NCBI GenBank assembly: GCA_013140805.1
Contig: JABFRW010000196.1
Coordinates: 1 to 40,911, forward strand
From: Candidatus Eisenbacteria bacterium
Lineage (GTDB): Bacteria; Eisenbacteria; RBG-16-71-46
Length of the DNA stretch: 40,911 nucleotides
Direction: 5' to 3'
Positions 8,782-24,483 of the stretch are shown here, piece after piece. Both the position numbers and the translations under genes were made by a program. The notes under the pieces are model-generated. The model ran no database searches. It saw nothing but the letters and a program-made list of their open reading frames with translations, and was not told the origin of the DNA. Position 1 is the stretch's first letter, and the number at the start of each line of letters is the position of its first letter.

Positions 8782-9013
8782 ATAAGAGGAGGCGTTGCTC
8801 CCGGTTGAGGGCCGCGGGCCGGCGCAGAATCTCTGCGGGTATCAGCTCGCTCGGAGTTCGATCACGCAAAACAAACGGAATCTATTGCCGATTCATAGCT
8901 GCTGCGCGAGACTCCGCGTTCCACAGTCACCCTTCTCGACCCCAATCACTCGCTGTCACGACGTGCTGCGGGCCGCGACGGTCGTTGCATGCAGTCCTCC
9001 CACCGAGGCCGCA
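8782..9013. promoter_or_regulatory. Divergent intergenic region between SDR and CarH-like regulator
   Basis: About 230 bp between divergent genes, with a locally AT-rich stretch at 8864-8900 unlike the surroundings. It contains a short inverted repeat GAATC-7-GATTC at 8878-8894. MerR-type regulators commonly bind such sites near their own promoters, so this is a candidate operator. No convincing -35/-10 pair could be fixed. Confidence 0.35.
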
Positions 9014-9991
9014 TTGCCGAGACCGGCACGTTACACGATACGCGCCGTCAGCGCGCTGACGGGCGTGAATGCGAATACCCTGCGCGCTTGGGAGCGGCGC
9101 TATCGCCTGCTCTATCCCGAGCGCACTCCGGGTGGCTATCGCCTGTACGACGAACGAGCACTCGTCACGTTGCGTCAGATTCAGACGCTGCTCGAAGCAG
9201 GCGTCTCCCTCGCGGACATCGTGGCCCGGTTTCGGGCGCGAGGCGGTCCGCTGCGTGAGAACGAAATGCGTCTCGAGCACTGGCCGTCGCTGCGGGCGCC
9301 GCGCCCCGGTGCTCGCTGGCTCGAAGGCGTGGTGCGCGCCACGCTGCTCGTCGACCGGCGCCGACTCGATCGCGACTATGGCCGAGCGGTCGGAGTGCTC
9401 GGACCGCGCGGCGCGTTCGGCAACGTCCTGGTGCCCGCGCGGCGCCTGTTGATCGCCGGGGGCTCGGAGCCCGGCGGACCGACGCTGACCGCGGCGGTCG
9501 AGCTCATCGACCGTTTCATGCGCGACCAGCTGGACGCGCTGCTCCGCGCCCTGCGGCCTTTGCATCAGCCGCCTCGCGTGCTGTTCCTGACCGGCTGTGA
9601 CGAGGGGCTCGAAGAGGTGCTGATGCAGATCGCGGTCGCCGTCGGCGTCGACTATGTCAGCTCGCGATTCATGGGTGTGGGCGCGGGCCACGATCGGCAG
9701 TGCGAAGCGATCCGCCAGGCGAGCCTTCGAGTCGTGGTGCTGACGTGCGCTCGTCCCGACGAATGCAGCTGTCTCATGCACTATCGGCGTGAGCGCAGAG
9801 TCGGAACGAATGCGCCGCTCCTTCTGCTGCTCACCCGCGACGCCGCAACCCAGGCGGGCCGCACGCCGGAAGCGGTCGAACAGGTGCTCGCACCCGATCC
9901 CGAGCTGGCCAGCGTCGGAGTCCTCGCGGCGTTCCGGCAATCCTCTCGATCGCGCGGACGGGTTCAGCGCCCGCGTTCGATGTCCTTGTGA
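9014..9991 (+). CDS. MerR-family regulator with CarH-like C-terminal domain
   Basis: 325 residues if it starts at the TTG at 9014, chosen because GAGG lies 5 bases upstream and the HTH begins soon after. An in-frame GTG at 8963 and a TTG at 8795 are alternatives. An N-terminal MerR HTH (YTIRAVSALTGVNANTLRAWERRY ends the first helix pair) with the GGYRLYDE wing is followed by ~200 residues laid out like the CarH/LitR helical cap plus Rossmann-like cobalamin domain. The expected E/D-x-H-x-x-G motif is absent: the matching place reads GCDEGLEEVL with no histidine. So it may sense another ligand or bind B12 differently. Its last 28 bp overlap the convergent 57-residue ORF. Confidence 0.78.
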   Translation: MPRPARYTIRAVSALTGVNANTLRAWERRYRLLYPERTPGGYRLYDERALVTLRQIQTLLEAGVSLADIVARFRARGGPLRENEMRLEHWPSLRAPRPGARWLEGVVRATLLVDRRRLDRDYGRAVGVLGPRGAFGNVLVPARRLLIAGGSEPGGPTLTAAVELIDRFMRDQLDALLRALRPLHQPPRVLFLTGCDEGLEEVLMQIAVAVGVDYVSSRFMGVGAGHDRQCEAIRQASLRVVVLTCARPDECSCLMHYRRERRVGTNAPLLLLLTRDAATQAGRTPEAVEQVLAPDPELASVGVLAAFRQSSRSRGRVQRPRSMSL

Positions 9992-17491: not shown

Positions 17492-17878
17492 CTAGAACGA
17501 GTAGCCGAGCAGCCCCGGGTCCGGCATCAGGTCGGGACTCCATGCGTCCGGCATGATCTCGACCTCGGTCTCCTGAGGCACCACGCTGGTCGCAGCCTGC
17601 TTCACGTCGGCGATCATCTGCGGCGCGTAGGGACAGAACGGCGTGGTGAGCATCATGCGGACCAGCGTCTTCCCCTCGGTGACGTTCACTTCGCGGATCA
17701 GACCCAGGTCGATGACCGACAGGTTGATCTCCGGATCCATCACGGTCTCGAGCGCACCGCGAATCGCCAGTTCCTGCTGACTCGGCGCGTTCGACGCTGC
17801 GGCCTCGCCCGCCGGAGTCGCGCCGGCAGCCGCGTTGGAAGTCGCGTTGGAAGTCGCGTCGTTCGGATTCTCGTTCAT
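17492..17878 (-). CDS. sufT: SufT-like DUF59/MIP18-family Fe-S maturation protein
   Basis: 128 residues from an ATG overlapping the Rieske stop (ATGA). The first ~35 residues are a low-complexity Asn/Ala/Ser linker containing a short duplicated TSNA. The DUF59 fold follows: ALETVMDPEINLSVIDLGLI and then MMLTTPFCPYAPQMI with the conserved cysteine C82. Family members help transfer Fe-S clusters to target proteins. Last gene of the suf operon, as in many bacteria that use a SufT at the end. It converts no substrate itself. Confidence 0.9.
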   Translation of the reverse strand: MNENPNDATSNATSNAAAGATPAGEAAASNAPSQQELAIRGALETVMDPEINLSVIDLGLIREVNVTEGKTLVRMMLTTPFCPYAPQMIADVKQAATSVVPQETEVEIMPDAWSPDLMPDPGLLGYSF

Positions 17879-18201
17879 GCCCACCCCACCTGGATTTCGT
17901 CGCCCTTGAGTCGCACCGAATAGGTCGGGACCGGCGCGGTCGCCGGCATGCACAGCACCGCACCGGTGCGGATGTCGAAACGCGCACCGTGTCGCGGACA
18001 CTCGATGACGTGTCCGTCGACCGTGCCGCTCGCCAGCTCACCGCCGTCGTGCGTGCACAGGTCGTCGAGCGCGTAGTAGCTGCCGTCCACGTGAAAGACC
18101 GCGACGGGTTGGTCCTCGAAGCGCACCACCTTCACGCCGCCCGAGGGGATCTCGCCCACTCGCGCGACGGTCACGAAGCCATCGGTCGTCGCACTCGTCA
18201 C
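17875..18201 (-). CDS. Rieske-type [2Fe-2S] ferredoxin
   Basis: 108 residues from a GTG overlapping the sufU stop as GTGA. It has one Rieske site: C49-T-H51 and C68-P-R-H71 (CTHDGGELASG ... ECPRHGARFD), spaced as in the ferredoxins of aromatic dioxygenases and in NirD. It has no catalytic oxygenase domain. Actinobacterial suf operons also carry such a protein. It may supply electrons for cluster assembly or accept the first clusters made; this is inference from location. It is followed by sufT with a 4-bp overlap. Confidence 0.92.
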   Translation of the reverse strand: MTSATTDGFVTVARVGEIPSGGVKVVRFEDQPVAVFHVDGSYYALDDLCTHDGGELASGTVDGHVIECPRHGARFDIRTGAVLCMPATAPVPTYSVRLKGDEIQVGWA

Positions 18202-18605
18202 GTCGTCGCCTCTTCTTCGCCGGGCCACGAAGTGAGCCCGTAGAGCCCCGCCTTGAGTGTCTTGAGCGCCAGCAGCGCGCACTTGAGTCGCACCGGACCC
18301 AGATCGATCCCGATCATTTCGAGCACGTCCTCGCGGCCCAGCGCCCGCAACTCCTCGACCGGCCGGCCCTCGACCGCCTCGCACAGCATCGAGGCCGAGG
18401 CCTGACTGATCGCGCAACCCTGGCCCGAGAACCGAACTTCGTCGAGCTTGCCGTCGCGCACCGACAGATCCATACGAATGCGATCGCCGCACAGCGGGTT
18501 CGCGTCTTCGAAGGTGTGCGTCGGAGCGTCGAGCGTGCCGCGACAGCGCGGGTTGCGGTAATGCTCGAGGATGTTCTCGCGGTAGATCTCGTCGAATCCC
18601 GTCAT
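18198..18605 (-). CDS. sufU: SufU-type Fe-S scaffold / sulfur-transfer protein
   Basis: 135 residues from the ATG at 18605, overlapping the sufS stop (ATGA). Cysteines C39 (NPLCGDRI, with D41), C64 (GQGCAISQASASML) and C109 (VRLKCALLALKTLK) match the three ligand cysteines of SufU, and the ISQASASML and RLKC contexts are SufU-like rather than IscU (no LPPVK-HC). But the C64-C109 spacing (45) is short: Bacillus SufU has about 62, because of an insertion. This protein lacks it, giving IscU-like spacing. It probably accepts sulfur from SufS via zinc-bound cysteine exchange. Confidence 0.9.
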   Translation of the reverse strand: MTGFDEIYRENILEHYRNPRCRGTLDAPTHTFEDANPLCGDRIRMDLSVRDGKLDEVRFSGQGCAISQASASMLCEAVEGRPVEELRALGREDVLEMIGIDLGPVRLKCALLALKTLKAGLYGLTSWPGEEEATT

Positions 18606-19867
18606 CGCGCGAAGGTGCGACGCACGCGCCACAGCCCCTCCACCAGCGCGTCCACTTCTTCCTCGAGCGAGTAGCAGTGGAACGAGGCGCGTGACGTGGC
18701 CGCGATCCCGAGTGCTTCGTGCAGCGGCATCGCGCAGTGATGGCCCGCGCGGACGCACACGCCGTCGCCGTCGAGCACCGCCGCCACGTCGTGCGGATGA
18801 ACGTCCGTCATGGTGAACGCCACCACCCCCCCGCGACGTTCGAGCGGCGGCCCGATGATGCGCAGGCCCTCGATCTCGGCGAGGCGATCCATGGTGTAGC
18901 CGGCGAGTGCCCGGTCGTGCGCGAACACATGCTCGCGGCCGAGTCGCTCGAGGTAGTCGACCGCGGCGCCGAGACCGACCGCTTCGGCGATCGGCATGGT
19001 GCCGGCTTCGAACTTCCACGGCAGCTCGTTCCACTGCGAGCGCTCGAGCTTGACCTCGCGGATCATCTCGCCACCGCCCAGAAACGGCGGCATCGCCTCG
19101 AGCAATGCGCGGCGGCCGTAGAGCACGCCAATGCCGGTCGGACCGAGCATCTTGTGCCCGGTGAAGGCGACGAAGTCGGCCCCCAGCGCCTGCACGTCGA
19201 GCGGCAGATGCGGGGCACTCTGCGAAGCGTCGGCCATCATCACACCGCCGACTGCGTGAACGGCACGCGCGATGTCGGCGATCGGGTTGATGGTGCCGAG
19301 CACGTTCGAGACGTGTACGCACGAGGCGAGCTTGACCCTGCCGTCCGCCAGCAGCCCGGTCAGCGGCTCCAGGTCCAGATCGCCGCTGCCGGTCACGCGC
19401 AGGAAGCGCAGCTCGGCGCCCTTTTCCTCGGCGAGCAACTGCCAGGGCACCAGGTTCGAATGGTGCTCCATCTCGGTGAGCAGCAGCGCATCACCGGCGC
19501 GCAGATTGGAACGGCCCCACGCATAGGCGACCAGATTGATCGCTTCGGTCGCGTTCTTCGTGAACACGATCTCGCGCGGGGTGGCGTTGACGAACGCCGC
19601 GACGCGGCGACGCGCGTCCTCGTAGGCGGCGGTCGCCTCCTCGGCGATGGTGTAGACGCCGCGATGGATGTTCGCGTTCGAGGTCGCGTAGTGGCGATTC
19701 ATCGCCTCGAGCACGGCATCCGGCTTCTGCGAGGTCGCTGCACTGTCCAGATAGCGCAGCGGCTTGTCCCGCGGGGTCCGGAAGATCGGAAACTCTTCAC
19801 GGATCGCACGCGGATCGAAGCCGCTCGAGGCCGGCATCACCGGCTGCGCCTGAACGGGAACCGTCAC
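18602..19867 (-). CDS. sufS: SufS cysteine desulfurase
   Basis: 421 residues. A GTG at 19867 is the longest start, one base after the sufD stop; an ATG at residue 11 is an alternative. It is a PLP class-V aminotransferase-fold enzyme that takes sulfur from L-cysteine as a persulfide. Key residues are visible: PLP lysine in FTGHKMLGPTG (K239), the catalytic cysteine in RAGHHCAMP (C378), EHHSN near 134-138 for PLP stacking, and NIHRGVYTIAEEAT near the N-terminus (66-79). The short lobe around C378 is the group II (SufS) type, matching the partner sufU next door. Confidence 0.96.
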   Translation of the reverse strand: MTVPVQAQPVMPASSGFDPRAIREEFPIFRTPRDKPLRYLDSAATSQKPDAVLEAMNRHYATSNANIHRGVYTIAEEATAAYEDARRRVAAFVNATPREIVFTKNATEAINLVAYAWGRSNLRAGDALLLTEMEHHSNLVPWQLLAEEKGAELRFLRVTGSGDLDLEPLTGLLADGRVKLASCVHVSNVLGTINPIADIARAVHAVGGVMMADASQSAPHLPLDVQALGADFVAFTGHKMLGPTGIGVLYGRRALLEAMPPFLGGGEMIREVKLERSQWNELPWKFEAGTMPIAEAVGLGAAVDYLERLGREHVFAHDRALAGYTMDRLAEIEGLRIIGPPLERRGGVVAFTMTDVHPHDVAAVLDGDGVCVRAGHHCAMPLHEALGIAATSRASFHCYSLEEEVDALVEGLWRVRRTFAR

Positions 19868-19868
19868 G

Positions 19869-21221
19869 TCACACGCCGATCTTGCGCTCGATCTCCGAGC
19901 GCAGCCGTTCGCGCACCGTCTCGAGCGGGATGCGATCCAGCACCGGCGCGAAGAAGCCCTCGACGATCAACCGCTGGGCTTCGACTCTGGGAAGTCCGCG
20001 CGCCATGAGGTAGATCTGCTGCTCGGGGTCGACGTGGCCGATCGTCGCGCCGTGCGTGCAGCGCACGTCGTTCGCGAGGATCTCGAGGCCCGGAATGCTG
20101 TCGGCGCGCGCGGTGTCGCTGAGCAACAGGTTGCGGTTCGCCTGGTAGGCGTCAGTGCGCTGGGCGCCCTCGGCCACCTGGATCAATCCCTGGTAGATGC
20201 TGCGCGCGTGATCCTTGAGGCAGCACTTGATCAGCAGGTCGCTGGTCGCGTGGGGTGCAAAGTGCCGCTGCAACGTGTGCAGGTGGAAGTGCTGGCGGGC
20301 GTCGCCGAACATGAAGCCGTGCACGAACGCCTGTGCGCCTTCGCCGGCGAGGTCGAAGTACGCGTGCGACTTGGCCTGCCGGGCCCCGAGCATGGTGTGA
20401 ATCCACTGCAGCTCGGCATTGCGGCCGACCCTTGCGCGTGCGTTGGTGTAGTGGAACAGGTGGCGTCCCCACTCCTGAAGCGAACCGAACACCAGCTTCG
20501 AATCGTCGCCGACGAACACCTCGGTGCCGCCGCCGTGGAACGAAATGCCGTCTGCATTGCCGGACACCAGCTCCTCGATCACGGTCGCCTTCGATCCGCG
20601 CCCCACGTGAACGACGGTGCGCGGCATCGTCACCGAGCCCGCACCCTCGTGCCAGTGCATGATGCGCACCGGGACTTCGGCTGCGACGCCGTCCGGCACC
20701 CACACGAATGCACCGCCGGTGCGCACGGCTTCGCTCGCCGCCACATACCAGTCGTAGTCCGGCGCGAGTGCCGAGCCCAATTCGGGGCGCAGCTTGTCGG
20801 CGTGGTCGCGGATCGCGCGATCCATCGAGCACACGATCACGCCCTGCTTCTGAAGCTCGGGGTGCGTCTGCGTCAGCACCACGGTGCCGCCGCGCTGAAC
20901 GATGAGGGCACTCGCCGTGGTGTCGCCGGCGAGGCGCTCGAGCAGTGCTGCCGGCAGGTCGTCGAGGTTACGGGCCGGCGGAACGCTCGCGAACGGATCG
21001 AGCCTCGGGAGTGCCGTCTCGAGTGAGCGGAAGTCCGTGCGACGCCACAATTCGTCGTCGCGCCTGGGGAACCCCAGCGACTTCATGTGCGCGGCAGCGA
21101 TGCGACGGCGCTCGAGCGCCCACTCGGGCTCTCCCGCCGTGCGCGCGGCCTCGGCCGCTCGCGTCGCCCACGCCGACTCGAATTCCGTCGCGGTGTTCGT
21201 CGCCATGGAAGTCGTCGTCAT
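19869..21221 (-). CDS. sufD: SufD, subunit of the SufBCD cluster scaffold
   Basis: 450 residues from an ATG overlapping the sufB stop (ATGA). The N-terminal ~90 residues are helical ([18 protein letters not shown]); the rest is the SufBD beta-helix core, ending with [22 protein letters not shown], where the histidine matches the conserved SufD cluster-region residue. SufD pairs with SufB and the ATPase SufC to build Fe-S clusters, and is linked to iron entry. It is similar in the C-terminal half to the adjacent sufB. Confidence 0.94.
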
Positions 21222-22627
21222 CCGACCGAGCCCTCCATCTGGAGCTGGATCAGTCGGTTCATCTCGACCGCGTACTCCATCGGCAGCTCCTTGACGATCG
21301 GCTCGATGAAGCCCGACACGATCATGGCGCCCGCTTCTTCCTGAGGAATGCCGCGGCTCATGAGATAGAAGATCTGGTCGTCGCCGATCTTCGACACCGT
21401 CGCCTCGTGACCGATCGTGACGCGATCCTCTTCGATCTCCATGTACGGGTAGGTGTCGGAGCGCGAGTGCTCGTCGAGGATCAGGGCGTCGCAGTTGACG
21501 GTGCTCTTCGAGTCGAAGGCACCCTTCTGCACCTTCACGAGTCCGCGGTAGCCGGCGCGCCCGCCGTCTTTGCTGATCGACTTGGAGATCACCTTGCTCG
21601 TCGTGCGTGGAGCGACGTGCACACACTTGCCACCCGCGTCCTGGTGCTGACCCTTGCCGGCGAAAGCGATCGAGAGGATTTCTCCGTGAGCCCCCGGCTC
21701 CATCATGTAGACCGCCGGGTACTTCATCGTGAGCTTGGAGCCCAGATTCCCGTCGACCCACTCCATGGTCGCGTTCTCATAGGCGACCGCGCGCTTGGTG
21801 ACGAGGTTGTAGACGTTGTTCGACCAGTTCTGGATGGTGGTGTAACGGCATCGCGCGTTCTTGTGCACGATGATCTCGACCACCGCCGAGTGCAGCGAAT
21901 CGCTCGACGAGATCGGCGCGGTGCAGCCCTCGACGTAGTGAACGTAGGCGCCCTCGTCCACGATGATGAGCGTGCGCTCGAACTGGCCCATGTCCTTCGT
22001 GTTGATGCGGAAGTAGGCCTGCAGCGGCACGTCCACGTGCACGCCCTTCGGCACGTAGATGAATGAACCGCCCGACCATACCGCCGAGTTGAGCGCCGCG
22101 AACTTGTTGTCGGTCGAAGGAATGATGGTGCCGAAGTACTTCTTGAACAGTTCCTCGTGGTCGCGCAGCCCGTGATCACACGACAAGAAGATCACGCCCT
22201 GCTTCTCGAGCTTCTCCTGGATCTTGTGGTACACGACCTCGGAGTCGTACTGCGCACCCACGCCGGACAGGAACTTCTGCTCGGCCTCGGGGATCCCGAG
22301 CTTGTCGAACGTGCGCTTCATGTCGGCCGGCACGTCTTCCCAGGTCTTCGCTTCCTTTTCGGTCGGCTTCACGTAGTAGTAGATATCCTGGAAGTTGATC
22401 GCGGCGACATCACCGCCCCACATGGGCAACGGCTTCTGTTGGAAGATCTCGTAGGCCTTGAGCCGGTAGTCGCGCATCCACTTGGGCTCGCCCTTCATGT
22501 CCGAGATCTGCGCCACGATTTCGGCGTCGAGTCCCTTGCGGCTCTTAAACACCGACTGCTCGGTGTCGTGGAATCCGTACTTCTCCGCGTAACCTTCGCG
22601 GACGTCGAGTTCGGGAGAGGTGCTCAT
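21218..22627 (-). CDS. sufB: SufB, Fe-S cluster scaffold subunit
   Basis: 469 residues, full length for SufB, from an ATG overlapping the sufC stop (ATGA). The sequence is highly conserved: [53 protein letters not shown], and late [20 protein letters not shown] with the cysteine equivalent to the E. coli C405 used in sulfur transfer. It ends QMEGSVG. It receives persulfide sulfur (from SufS/SufU here) and assembles a cluster on the SufBC2D complex. No sign of damage. Confidence 0.97.
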
Positions 22628-23427
22628 CGGGTGGCCATCTCCTTCGGGGCCTGAACCCAGTCGTAGCCGCGGGTTTCCAGTTCGACCGCGAGCTCGGGGC
22701 CGCCGGTCATCAGGATGCGGCCCTCCTTCATCACGTGCACCTGGTCGGGCTTGATGTAGTTGAGGATGCGGTTGTAGTGCGTGATCACGATCACGCCGAT
22801 CTCAGGCCCGGCGAGCGCATTGACGCCGTCGCTCACCACCCGCAGCGCGTCGATGTCGAGCCCCGAGTCGGTCTCGTCCATGATCGCGATCGTGGGCTTG
22901 AGCAGCGCCATTTGCAGAATTTCGGCGCGCTTCTTCTCGCCGCCGGAGAACCCGTCGTTCAGGTAGCGGCCCGCAAAGCTCTCATCCATCTTGAGCACTT
23001 CCATCTGCTGCTTGAGCAGGGCGCGGAACTCACGCGGCGGAATGCCCTTCTTGTGCGGCATGCGGCCATTCGCGTCGGCCTCCGGCGCCTGAAGCCGGGC
23101 GTTGAGCGCGGCGCGCAAGAAGTTCGCCACCGTCACGCCGGGAATCGCGACCGGGTACTGGAACGCCATGAACAGCCCGGCGCGCGAACGCTCGTCGGCT
23201 TCCATCTCGAGCACGCTCTCGCCCCGGAACAGGATGTTGCCGTCCGTCACTTCGTAGCGCGGGTGGCCCATGAGCGTGTTCGCTAGCGTGCTCTTGCCGG
23301 AACCGTTCGGGCCCATGAGCGCGTGAATCTCTCCCTTGCGCACCTCGAGCGAGAGGCCCTTGAGGATCTCCTTGCCTTCCACGGCCACGTGGAGGTCTTT
23401 CACCTGCAGTTCTGGGGTGGTGCTCAT
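22624..23427 (-). CDS. sufC: SufC, ABC-type ATPase of the SUF machinery
   Basis: 267 residues from the ATG at 23427; AGGA lies 7 bases upstream. All ABC ATPase motifs are seen: Walker [10 protein letters not shown] (39-47), Q-loop [10 protein letters not shown] (about 89-98), signature SGGEKKR (161-167), and Walker B with the catalytic Glu, [15 protein letters not shown] (E185). It is a soluble ABC protein that drives conformational change in SufBD, with no membrane partner. It ends close to the sufB start (4-bp overlap). Gap to sufA is 24 bp. Confidence 0.97.
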
Positions 23428-23451: not shown

Positions 23452-23775
23452 CTAGGCGGAGAAACTATCGCCGCAGGCGCAGCTATGTCTCACGTTTGGA
23501 TTGTTGAACTTGAATCCAGCGCCCATCAGGCCCTGGACGAAATCGATCTCGGTGCCGGTCAGCAGGACCGCGCTCTTGAGGTCCACGAACAGCTTCACGC
23601 CGCCGGTGTCGAAGATTTCATCGCCCGGGCTTTCGGCTTCACAGAACTCCATGAAATAAGAGTTGCCCGAACAGCCGCCGCCGCGCACGCCGATGCGAAG
23701 GCCGCCCTCGGGAGTGCCGCGCTGCGTGAGCAGATCCTTCACCTTGCCCTTCGCCGCCTCGGTCATCGTGATCAT
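23452..23775 (-). CDS. sufA: A-type Fe-S carrier (SufA/IscA/HesB family)
   Basis: 107 residues from an ATG at 23775 with AAAGGAG about 11 bases upstream. The three A-type cysteines are present: C35 (RGGGCSGNSYFMEF) and C99-x-C101 (RHSCACGDSFS) near the C-terminus. A-type carriers pass Fe-S clusters from the scaffold to target proteins. The name sufA is given by operon context; ErpA- or IscA-type cannot be excluded. It lies between the MerR-like regulator (34 bp) and sufC, so it is co-transcribed. Confidence 0.92.
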   Translation of the reverse strand: MITMTEAAKGKVKDLLTQRGTPEGGLRIGVRGGGCSGNSYFMEFCEAESPGDEIFDTGGVKLFVDLKSAVLLTGTEIDFVQGLMGAGFKFNNPNVRHSCACGDSFSA

Positions 23776-23809: not shown

Positions 23810-24424
23810 TCATGCCCGGGACCGGGGTCCACGGGCGGGCGCGTCCATCGACTTCACTTCGGATCCCGCGATCTCGGCGAGCGGCACGAATGAGCTGCGA
23901 TTCGAACGCGCCCCCGATCCGCGCTCGGGCGCCGACTTGAAACCGGCGACCAGCACCGGTTCGCGGGCAACGCCGTGATCCAGCTCGCAGTGCACGCATC
24001 CCACCGCCGATTCGTTGGTGCCGCACTGATTGCAGGTCTCGAGATACGCGAGCCCCGCGAGCAGTTCGTGCTCGAGTTCGCGCTGCCGTTTGATCGTCTC
24101 GCGCGTCGCGATGAGCCGCTCCTCGAACACCTCGCGCAGGCGCTTCATGGCGTCGGGACCGAGATCCGCCTGCCACCACTCGCGCAAGACATCTCGCATT
24201 TCCTGAAGCGAGAATCCCAGACCGTGCAGCATGTCCATCCACTTGACGCGATCGATCGCGGAGCGATCGTAGAGGCGGAAGCCGCCGCTGGTGCGTGTGA
24301 CCGGCGTGAGCAGGCCCATCTCTTCATAGAGGTGGATCGCCCGCACGGTCTTGCCGGTCTCGCGTGCCAGATCGCCGACACGGATCCGATCGGTCTTCGC
24401 TCTCATCGGAGTGGCCAAGTTCAA
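23810..24424 (-). CDS. MerR-family regulator with C-terminal Cys cluster, heading the suf operon
   Basis: 204 residues from a TTG at 24424, favoured because GAGGG lies 7 bases upstream; an ATG at 24406 gives 198 residues. Residues about 14-85 are a MerR winged HTH (RVGDLARETGKTVRAIHLYE, GGFRLYDRSAIDRVKWM). A coiled coil follows (about 95-128). Then C131-x2-C134-x8-C143-x2-C146-x3-H150 (CNQCGT ... GCVHCELDH), resembling a zinc or Fe-S site, and a Ser/Pro-rich tail. Position first in the operon and the metal site suggest it controls suf expression by sensing a cluster, iron, zinc or thiol stress. SoxR has a different spacing (C-x2-C-x-C-x5-C), so it is not SoxR. Confidence 0.88.
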   Translation of the reverse strand: MNLATPMRAKTDRIRVGDLARETGKTVRAIHLYEEMGLLTPVTRTSGGFRLYDRSAIDRVKWMDMLHGLGFSLQEMRDVLREWWQADLGPDAMKRLREVFEERLIATRETIKRQRELEHELLAGLAYLETCNQCGTNESAVGCVHCELDHGVAREPVLVAGFKSAPERGSGARSNRSSFVPLAEIAGSEVKSMDAPARGPRSRA

Positions 24425-24428
24425 ACCC

Positions 24429-24442
24429 TCACGTATGCGTTA
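24429..24442. promoter_or_regulatory. Imperfect dyad, candidate operator of the suf operon
   Basis: TCACGTATGCGTTA reads as an imperfect palindrome around ACG-TATG-CGT. It lies just downstream of the expected start of transcription from the promoter at 24483-24455 and before the regulator start codon. It could be a binding site for the MerR-like regulator or just chance symmetry. MerR proteins classically bind between -35 and -10, so this placement would be unusual. Confidence 0.25.
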
Positions 24443-24454
24443 GAGTGCGTCTGT

Positions 24455-24483
24455 AATATAGCCGCTTCTAAGGAGTTCGCCAA
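24455..24483 (-). promoter_or_regulatory. Sigma-70-like promoter of the suf operon
   Basis: On the minus strand, -35 TTGGCG (24483-24478) is separated by 17 bp from -10 TATATT (24460-24455), 31 bp before the regulator start at 24424. The local AT richness stands out from the GC-rich background. The 17-bp spacer is normal; many MerR-activated promoters have 19-20 bp. So the regulator may repress, or act elsewhere. Confidence 0.6.

Follow-up and report, generated by a model that had tools for sequence, protein, structure and literature searches.

A putative MerR-type repressor with four invariant cysteines heads Fe-S biogenesis operons in Eisenbacteria and Myxococcota

The window, that is, the whole 40,911-nucleotide stretch of DNA analysed here (contig JABFRW010000196.1 of a Candidatus Eisenbacteria bacterium), carries on its reverse strand a gene for a MerR-type regulator (23810–24424), recognized from its open reading frame, its Pfam MerR_1 and MerR matches and its orthologues. 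This gene opens a same-strand run in the order merR-sufA-C-B-D-S-U-Rieske-SufT/DUF59, comprising a sufA-type A-type carrier (23452–23775; TIGR00049, 2.8e-34), sufC (22624–23427; TIGR01978, 6e-104), sufB (21218–22627; TIGR01980, 7e-218), sufD (19869–21221; PF01458, 7e-76), sufS (18602–19867; TIGR01979, 4e-164), sufU of the NifU_N type (18198–18605; PF01592, 2e-27), a Rieske-type ferredoxin whose start is approximate (17875–18198; PF00355, 1e-20) and a SufT/DUF59-type assembly protein (17492–17878; PF01883, 5e-18), all on the reverse strand. The matches of sufC, sufB and sufS lie over the model cut-offs. The original prediction, made from the letters alone, had placed the regulator first in the suf run and 34 bp before sufA, and the sufA start at 23775 indeed lies 34 nt past the merR stop; the upper coordinate of its interval, 24483, is the end of the −35 element of the promoter and not that of the gene, whose bound is 24424. 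A second MerR-type regulator is encoded at 8795–9991 on the forward strand of the window; its C-terminal ~250 residues have no Pfam match, and its layout is reminiscent of CarH/LitR-like regulators.

Translated from a TTG start at 24424, with an alternative in-frame ATG at 24406, the merR product has 204 aa. The MerR-type helix-turn-helix (HTH) anticipated for it was recovered as a winged HTH DNA-binding domain at residues 15–82 (24179–24382, reverse strand; PF13411, 4.2e-13; AlphaFold2 pLDDT ~95), and scores of 49.6 bits vs 21.6 for PF13411 and 39.8 vs 28.2 for PF00376 satisfy the HTH criterion for the MerR superfamily. Only MerR domains are matched above the Pfam cut-offs, and the HTH domain was detected in 56/56 relatives. 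In the AlphaFold2 model of the product (mean pLDDT 84), the HTH is followed by a long helix of the dimerisation type (residues 89–132; 24029–24160, reverse strand) that ends at the first CxxC; this helix and the best PDB fold matches, which are MerR-family proteins including SoxR (2zhg/2zhh), CadR and CueR, fulfil the long-helix criterion for the superfamily.

A putative sensor loop, CNQC-x8-CVHC-x3-H, occupies residues 131–150 (23975–24034, reverse strand). Cysteines 131, 134, 143 and 146 together with H150 form exactly the C-x2-C-x8-C-x2-C-x3-H cluster proposed for the window protein, and a search for homologues with the same cysteine spacing, suggested as a check, did find them: the four cysteines are invariant in 89/89 relatives, and the spacing C-x2-C-x8-C-x2-C recurs in 74 of the 89 aligned proteins, with small variations in the rest. 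The histidine could not be upheld as part of the motif. It lies within six residues of the last cysteine in 84/89 proteins, at varying distance, which rules it out as an obligatory ligand; the conserved site is therefore a Cys4 site, since the cysteines are invariant and the histidine is not. Along with these cysteines, a P-x-L-V-x-G tail is strictly or nearly strictly kept in the relatives. In the model the long helix terminates with the first CxxC, and the second falls in the loop that follows; from this and the fold matches we judge the predicted position to be the one where SoxR and the metalloregulatory MerRs carry their sites. Sites with two CxxC pairs frequently bind zinc. For this Cys4 site in MerR an Fe-S cluster is the most likely ligand, an inference made without spectroscopic data that does not exclude zinc or thiol redox chemistry.

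Searching 59 related genomes for merR orthologues yielded 26 clear ones including the window's own, the others being ~41–64% identical, followed by a sharp drop to weaker matches. Suf genes lie downstream of all 26 Eisenbacteria orthologues, which belong to families f1, f2 and f5. An alignment-based scan of 84,980 species, using search peptides from the HTH and none from the Cys region, returned matches in Eisenbacteria and Myxococcota. Among the 62 Myxococcota orthologues, for example in Sorangium, an iscS-type gene lies downstream in 60/60 evaluable loci, two loci at a contig edge not being evaluable; iscU and iscA follow iscS as a rule, and in the Sorangium isc run a DnaK-type (HscA-like) ORF comes next. 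A single strong orthologue was found in every one of 30 Myxococcota genomes, and in the deep-branching Eisenbacteria genome G022 the orthologue likewise precedes iscS. Loci L035–L050, L052 and L055, which repeat genomes already included, were counted once. Linkage to isc or suf, one criterion for an Fe-S biogenesis regulator, is thus met at 86/86 evaluable loci and in the deep Eisenbacteria isc case. The expectation of a regulator family devoted to Fe-S biogenesis stood in so far as all evaluable relatives head an Fe-S operon, and had to be widened in that the partner is not always suf but isc in Myxococcota and G022.

A promoter scan located a −35 element, TTGGCG (24478–24483, reverse strand), and a −10 element, TATATT (24455–24460, reverse strand), confirming the 17-bp spacer reported earlier (TTGGCG-N17-TATATT at 24483–24455). 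Between this promoter and the gene lies the putative operator ACTCTAACGCATACGTGAGGGT (24425–24446, reverse strand). The form common to the Eisenbacteria and Myxococcota groups is a 22–24 bp near-palindrome, AAC(C/T)CTnAC(G/C)(C/T)nTACGTAAGGGTT, and a 24-bp matrix with the consensus AACYCTNACSYNTACGTAAGGGTT scored at least 19 bits in 87/89 merR promoters, shuffled sequence reaching at most 9.8. As a guard against circularity, matrices trained on one phylum were run on the other: the Eisenbacteria-trained matrix recovered the operator in 61/62 Myxococcota promoters and the Myxococcota-trained matrix in 26/26 Eisenbacteria promoters, exceeding shuffle maxima of 5.1 and 3.5 bits. A conserved site at the operon promoter, a further criterion for Fe-S biogenesis regulators, is accordingly met, on sequence alone and without binding data. 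The two merR promoters without a match are L105, from G083, and L031, from G022; the latter has a TTGACGTTCACGTCAA-type site instead. In G083 (Nannocystineae), two operators precede the gene for an rpoH-type sigma factor (L172:244–322 and 379–1266), and it is the merR-isc promoter that lacks one.

Within its own genome the operator was found once, at 24425–24446, in a pattern search allowing up to two mismatches, and a reversed-pattern control gave zero matches; with this single site, no broad regulon was found there at ≤2 mismatches. When at most one mismatch was allowed, 18/20 family genomes and 26/30 Myxococcota genomes contained the operator; its place there is nearly always merR-suf or merR-isc, and in most cases it occurs nowhere else. 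Additional operator-like sites were recorded at G015:C201, G004:C133, G060:C243, G088:C367 and G088:C92. Strong matches away from merR also occur at L129:1500–1523 and L135:1500–1523, one of them at the end of a gene whose product, of 487 aa, carries a Tat-like signal.

In 17/18 family-f1 promoters, the distance from the start of the best-scoring −10 to the operator matrix is exactly 13 nt and the spacer 17–18 bp, and many Myxococcota promoters are similar, with the −10 about 2–25 nt before the operator. Metalloregulatory MerRs bind operators between the −35 and −10 of promoters with 19–20 bp spacers. The window departs from this arrangement of a typical MerR activator, having a 17-bp spacer and an operator that begins beyond the −10; only in family f5 is the operator inside the spacer, which is 18 bp there. 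An operator within a 19–20 bp spacer is a trait of many, not all, MerR members, and it is the fold that decides superfamily membership. Because the operator lies downstream of the −10 of a promoter with a normal spacer, binding should block transcription. The suggestion that the regulator represses rather than untwists DNA is thus in keeping with the shared operator position, again without binding data.

The distribution of Rrf2 proteins offers a complementary view. In Eisenbacteria families without MerR, a true Rrf2 protein is present in 16/16 genomes, adjoining iscS or sufBC in at least 9 of them (L238–L243, L251, L254, L258), whereas only 5/26 MerR-carrying Eisenbacteria genomes contain one, the best Rrf2 locus of each being non-adjacent (Fisher 2.4e-7, uncorrected for kinship; G022, which has both MerR and Rrf2, was excluded). 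The window's own genome has no Rrf2 protein (PF02082) above cut-off. Since the MerR-less Eisenbacteria families all carry Rrf2, MerR appears to replace IscR/RisR-type control in Eisenbacteria. Across Myxococcota strict mutual exclusion was not found, 26/30 MerR genomes holding an Rrf2 protein, and 0/30 examined Myxococcota Rrf2 loci lie near isc or suf.

A tree built from 71 proteins separates the suf-linked group by a branch (98/96) from the isc-linked proteins around it, and a single isc/suf switch therefore suffices. Five distant Cys4-MerR genes from other bacterial groups (L198, L199, L200, L201 and L203) are immediately followed by a sigma-70 family gene, and related palindromes occur at or close to the promoters of these MerR genes. 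Because these relatives adjoin sigma-factor genes, the scaffold and its autoregulation appear to predate the link to Fe-S assembly, and since the nearest outside relatives keep the Cys4 site in that setting, the ancestral signal need not have been Fe-S status. A wider scenario can be offered only tentatively, and we lean slightly against it: an old Cys4-MerR lineage might constitute a second Fe-S-binding MerR branch besides SoxR, autoregulated via a TTACG-n-CGTAA-type palindrome and coupling cluster status to expression, which would control sigma-factor genes in some phyla; Myxococcota would have recruited it to isc and Eisenbacteria, following a single switch, to suf, with displacement of Rrf2 control.

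Collectively, comparisons at the level of sequence demonstrate the family, its invariant Cys4 site, its operon linkage, the shared operator, which is nearly unique in each genome, and the promoter geometry. From these we infer, as the probable reading, that the merR product is a dedicated, autoregulating MerR-type repressor of Fe-S biogenesis with an Fe-S cluster as its signal; binding, repression, the Fe-S ligand and the direction of the switch are all inferred. A dimer would bind the near-palindrome at 24425–24446, which is predicted to cover the transcription start of merR-sufACBDSU(-Rieske-SufT) downstream of the 17-bp-spacer sigma-70 promoter, and would thereby block transcription. The four cysteines at the tip of the dimerisation helix most likely hold an Fe-S cluster, such that the holo-protein would repress suf when clusters are plentiful, and the apo-protein would release the operator when iron is short or the cluster is destroyed by oxidants.

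The identity of the signal is the point at which other readings are most easily accommodated. A structural or sensing zinc site, with the repressor answering zinc or metal status and adapting Fe-S assembly to interference of zinc with iron, is unlikely but remains tenable: the spacing C-x2-C-x8/9-C-x2-C resembles that of zinc knuckles, and the nearest sequence models are the zinc, copper, cadmium and lead MerRs, yet the scores fall far under the cut-offs of those families, the operon has no metal transport genes and the sole conserved target is Fe-S biogenesis. The two CxxC pairs might alternatively form disulfides under oxidative stress, releasing the operator and inducing suf or isc within a wider stress response. 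Such a thiol/redox switch, to which the sigma-70 family neighbours and related operators of the distant Cys4-MerRs and the two operators preceding the rpoH-type gene in G083 lend some weight, is nevertheless distinctly unlikely, given that conservation of four cysteines and the P-x-L-V-x-G tail is more than a redox pair requires and that almost every genome searched has no target other than Fe-S biogenesis.

The mode of action and the target itself can also be questioned. We give only slight credence to activation of the classical MerR kind, in which the protein would untwist the promoter and, like SoxR, turn suf on when Fe-S clusters are damaged; in family f5 (L023–L029) the operator does have a TRGACY/TGGAAT-like hexamer on one side and a TANGAT-like hexamer on the other, 18 bp apart, which is the position of a MerR activator, but the window and most genomes combine a 17-bp spacer with an operator downstream of the −10, where untwisting would be useless. 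It is barely credible that the regulator merely shares a transcript with suf, to which it would be unrelated, and controls other genes: co-transcription alone would allow it, but the operator lies at the regulator's own operon promoter and essentially nowhere else, and the same regulator accompanies isc in another phylum.

What is known of the control of Fe-S assembly comes mainly from Rrf2 proteins (IscR, RisR) and from the ArsR-like SufR. To these MerR adds a third, unrelated scaffold, across two phyla and including cultured Sorangium, for whose isc operon no described regulator was found in the open-access literature; the same regulator–operator pair, moreover, moves between the ISC and SUF machineries. 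The open-access literature likewise yielded no MerR protein as a regulator of suf or isc; subscription papers, regulon databases and supplements were outside the scope of the search. On present evidence the protein is very probably a repressor that has not been described before and that tunes the production of Fe-S clusters, with repression inferred and prior description not excluded. Because the operator is exact, about one site is present per genome and the cysteines are defined, the proposal can be tested at once.

Comparison with characterized systems places the protein within the MerR fold and outside its described families. SoxR, which binds [2Fe-2S], shares the MerR fold and a Cys cluster at the tip of the dimerisation helix; its cluster motif is C-x2-C-x-C-x5-C, and it activates stress genes and is not known to regulate isc or suf. 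The relatives do not meet this motif, having C-x2-C-x8/9-C-x2-C, as the original prediction had held in setting the cysteine spacing apart from that of SoxR, and SoxR membership is ruled out by a TIGR01950 score of 43.5 bits vs a cut-off of 116.9. The metalloregulators CueR, ZntR, CadR and MerR likewise have the MerR fold and cysteines at the end of the dimerisation helix but serve metal-resistance targets, and the CueR, ZntR, CadR-PbrR and MerR equivalogs are ruled out at 53.9, 44.5, 53.0 and 43.0 bits vs cut-offs of 147–168.

Functionally closer counterparts belong to other protein families. SufR of cyanobacteria and mycobacteria is, like the proposed regulator, a repressor of the suf operon and the first gene of that operon in Mycobacterium (PMC6034842); it is an ArsR-like HTH protein (PMC9973013), not a MerR, and membership is ruled out, as only MerR domains score above cut-off. 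Escherichia coli IscR resembles the predicted system as the first gene of an Fe-S biogenesis operon and a feedback repressor but belongs to the Rrf2 family, and the absence of a PF02082 match in the merR product rules out Rrf2 (IscR/RisR) membership. RisR of Myxococcus xanthus, an Rrf2 protein, represses isc and suf in its holo form, and its sites cover the −10 (PMC9973013, the main text of which does not mention MerR). Both RisR and the inferred MerR repressor are autoregulated repressors of Fe-S biogenesis found in myxobacteria, with sites overlapping the −10, Cys-based sensing, which for MerR is a prediction, and a first-gene position before suf; RisR differs in its Rrf2 winged helix, three cysteines and GAC-N7-GTC core site, protein family and operator being unrelated. 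By analogy, we propose that the MerR protein may fill functionally the role of RisR, IscR and SufR on an unrelated protein scaffold.
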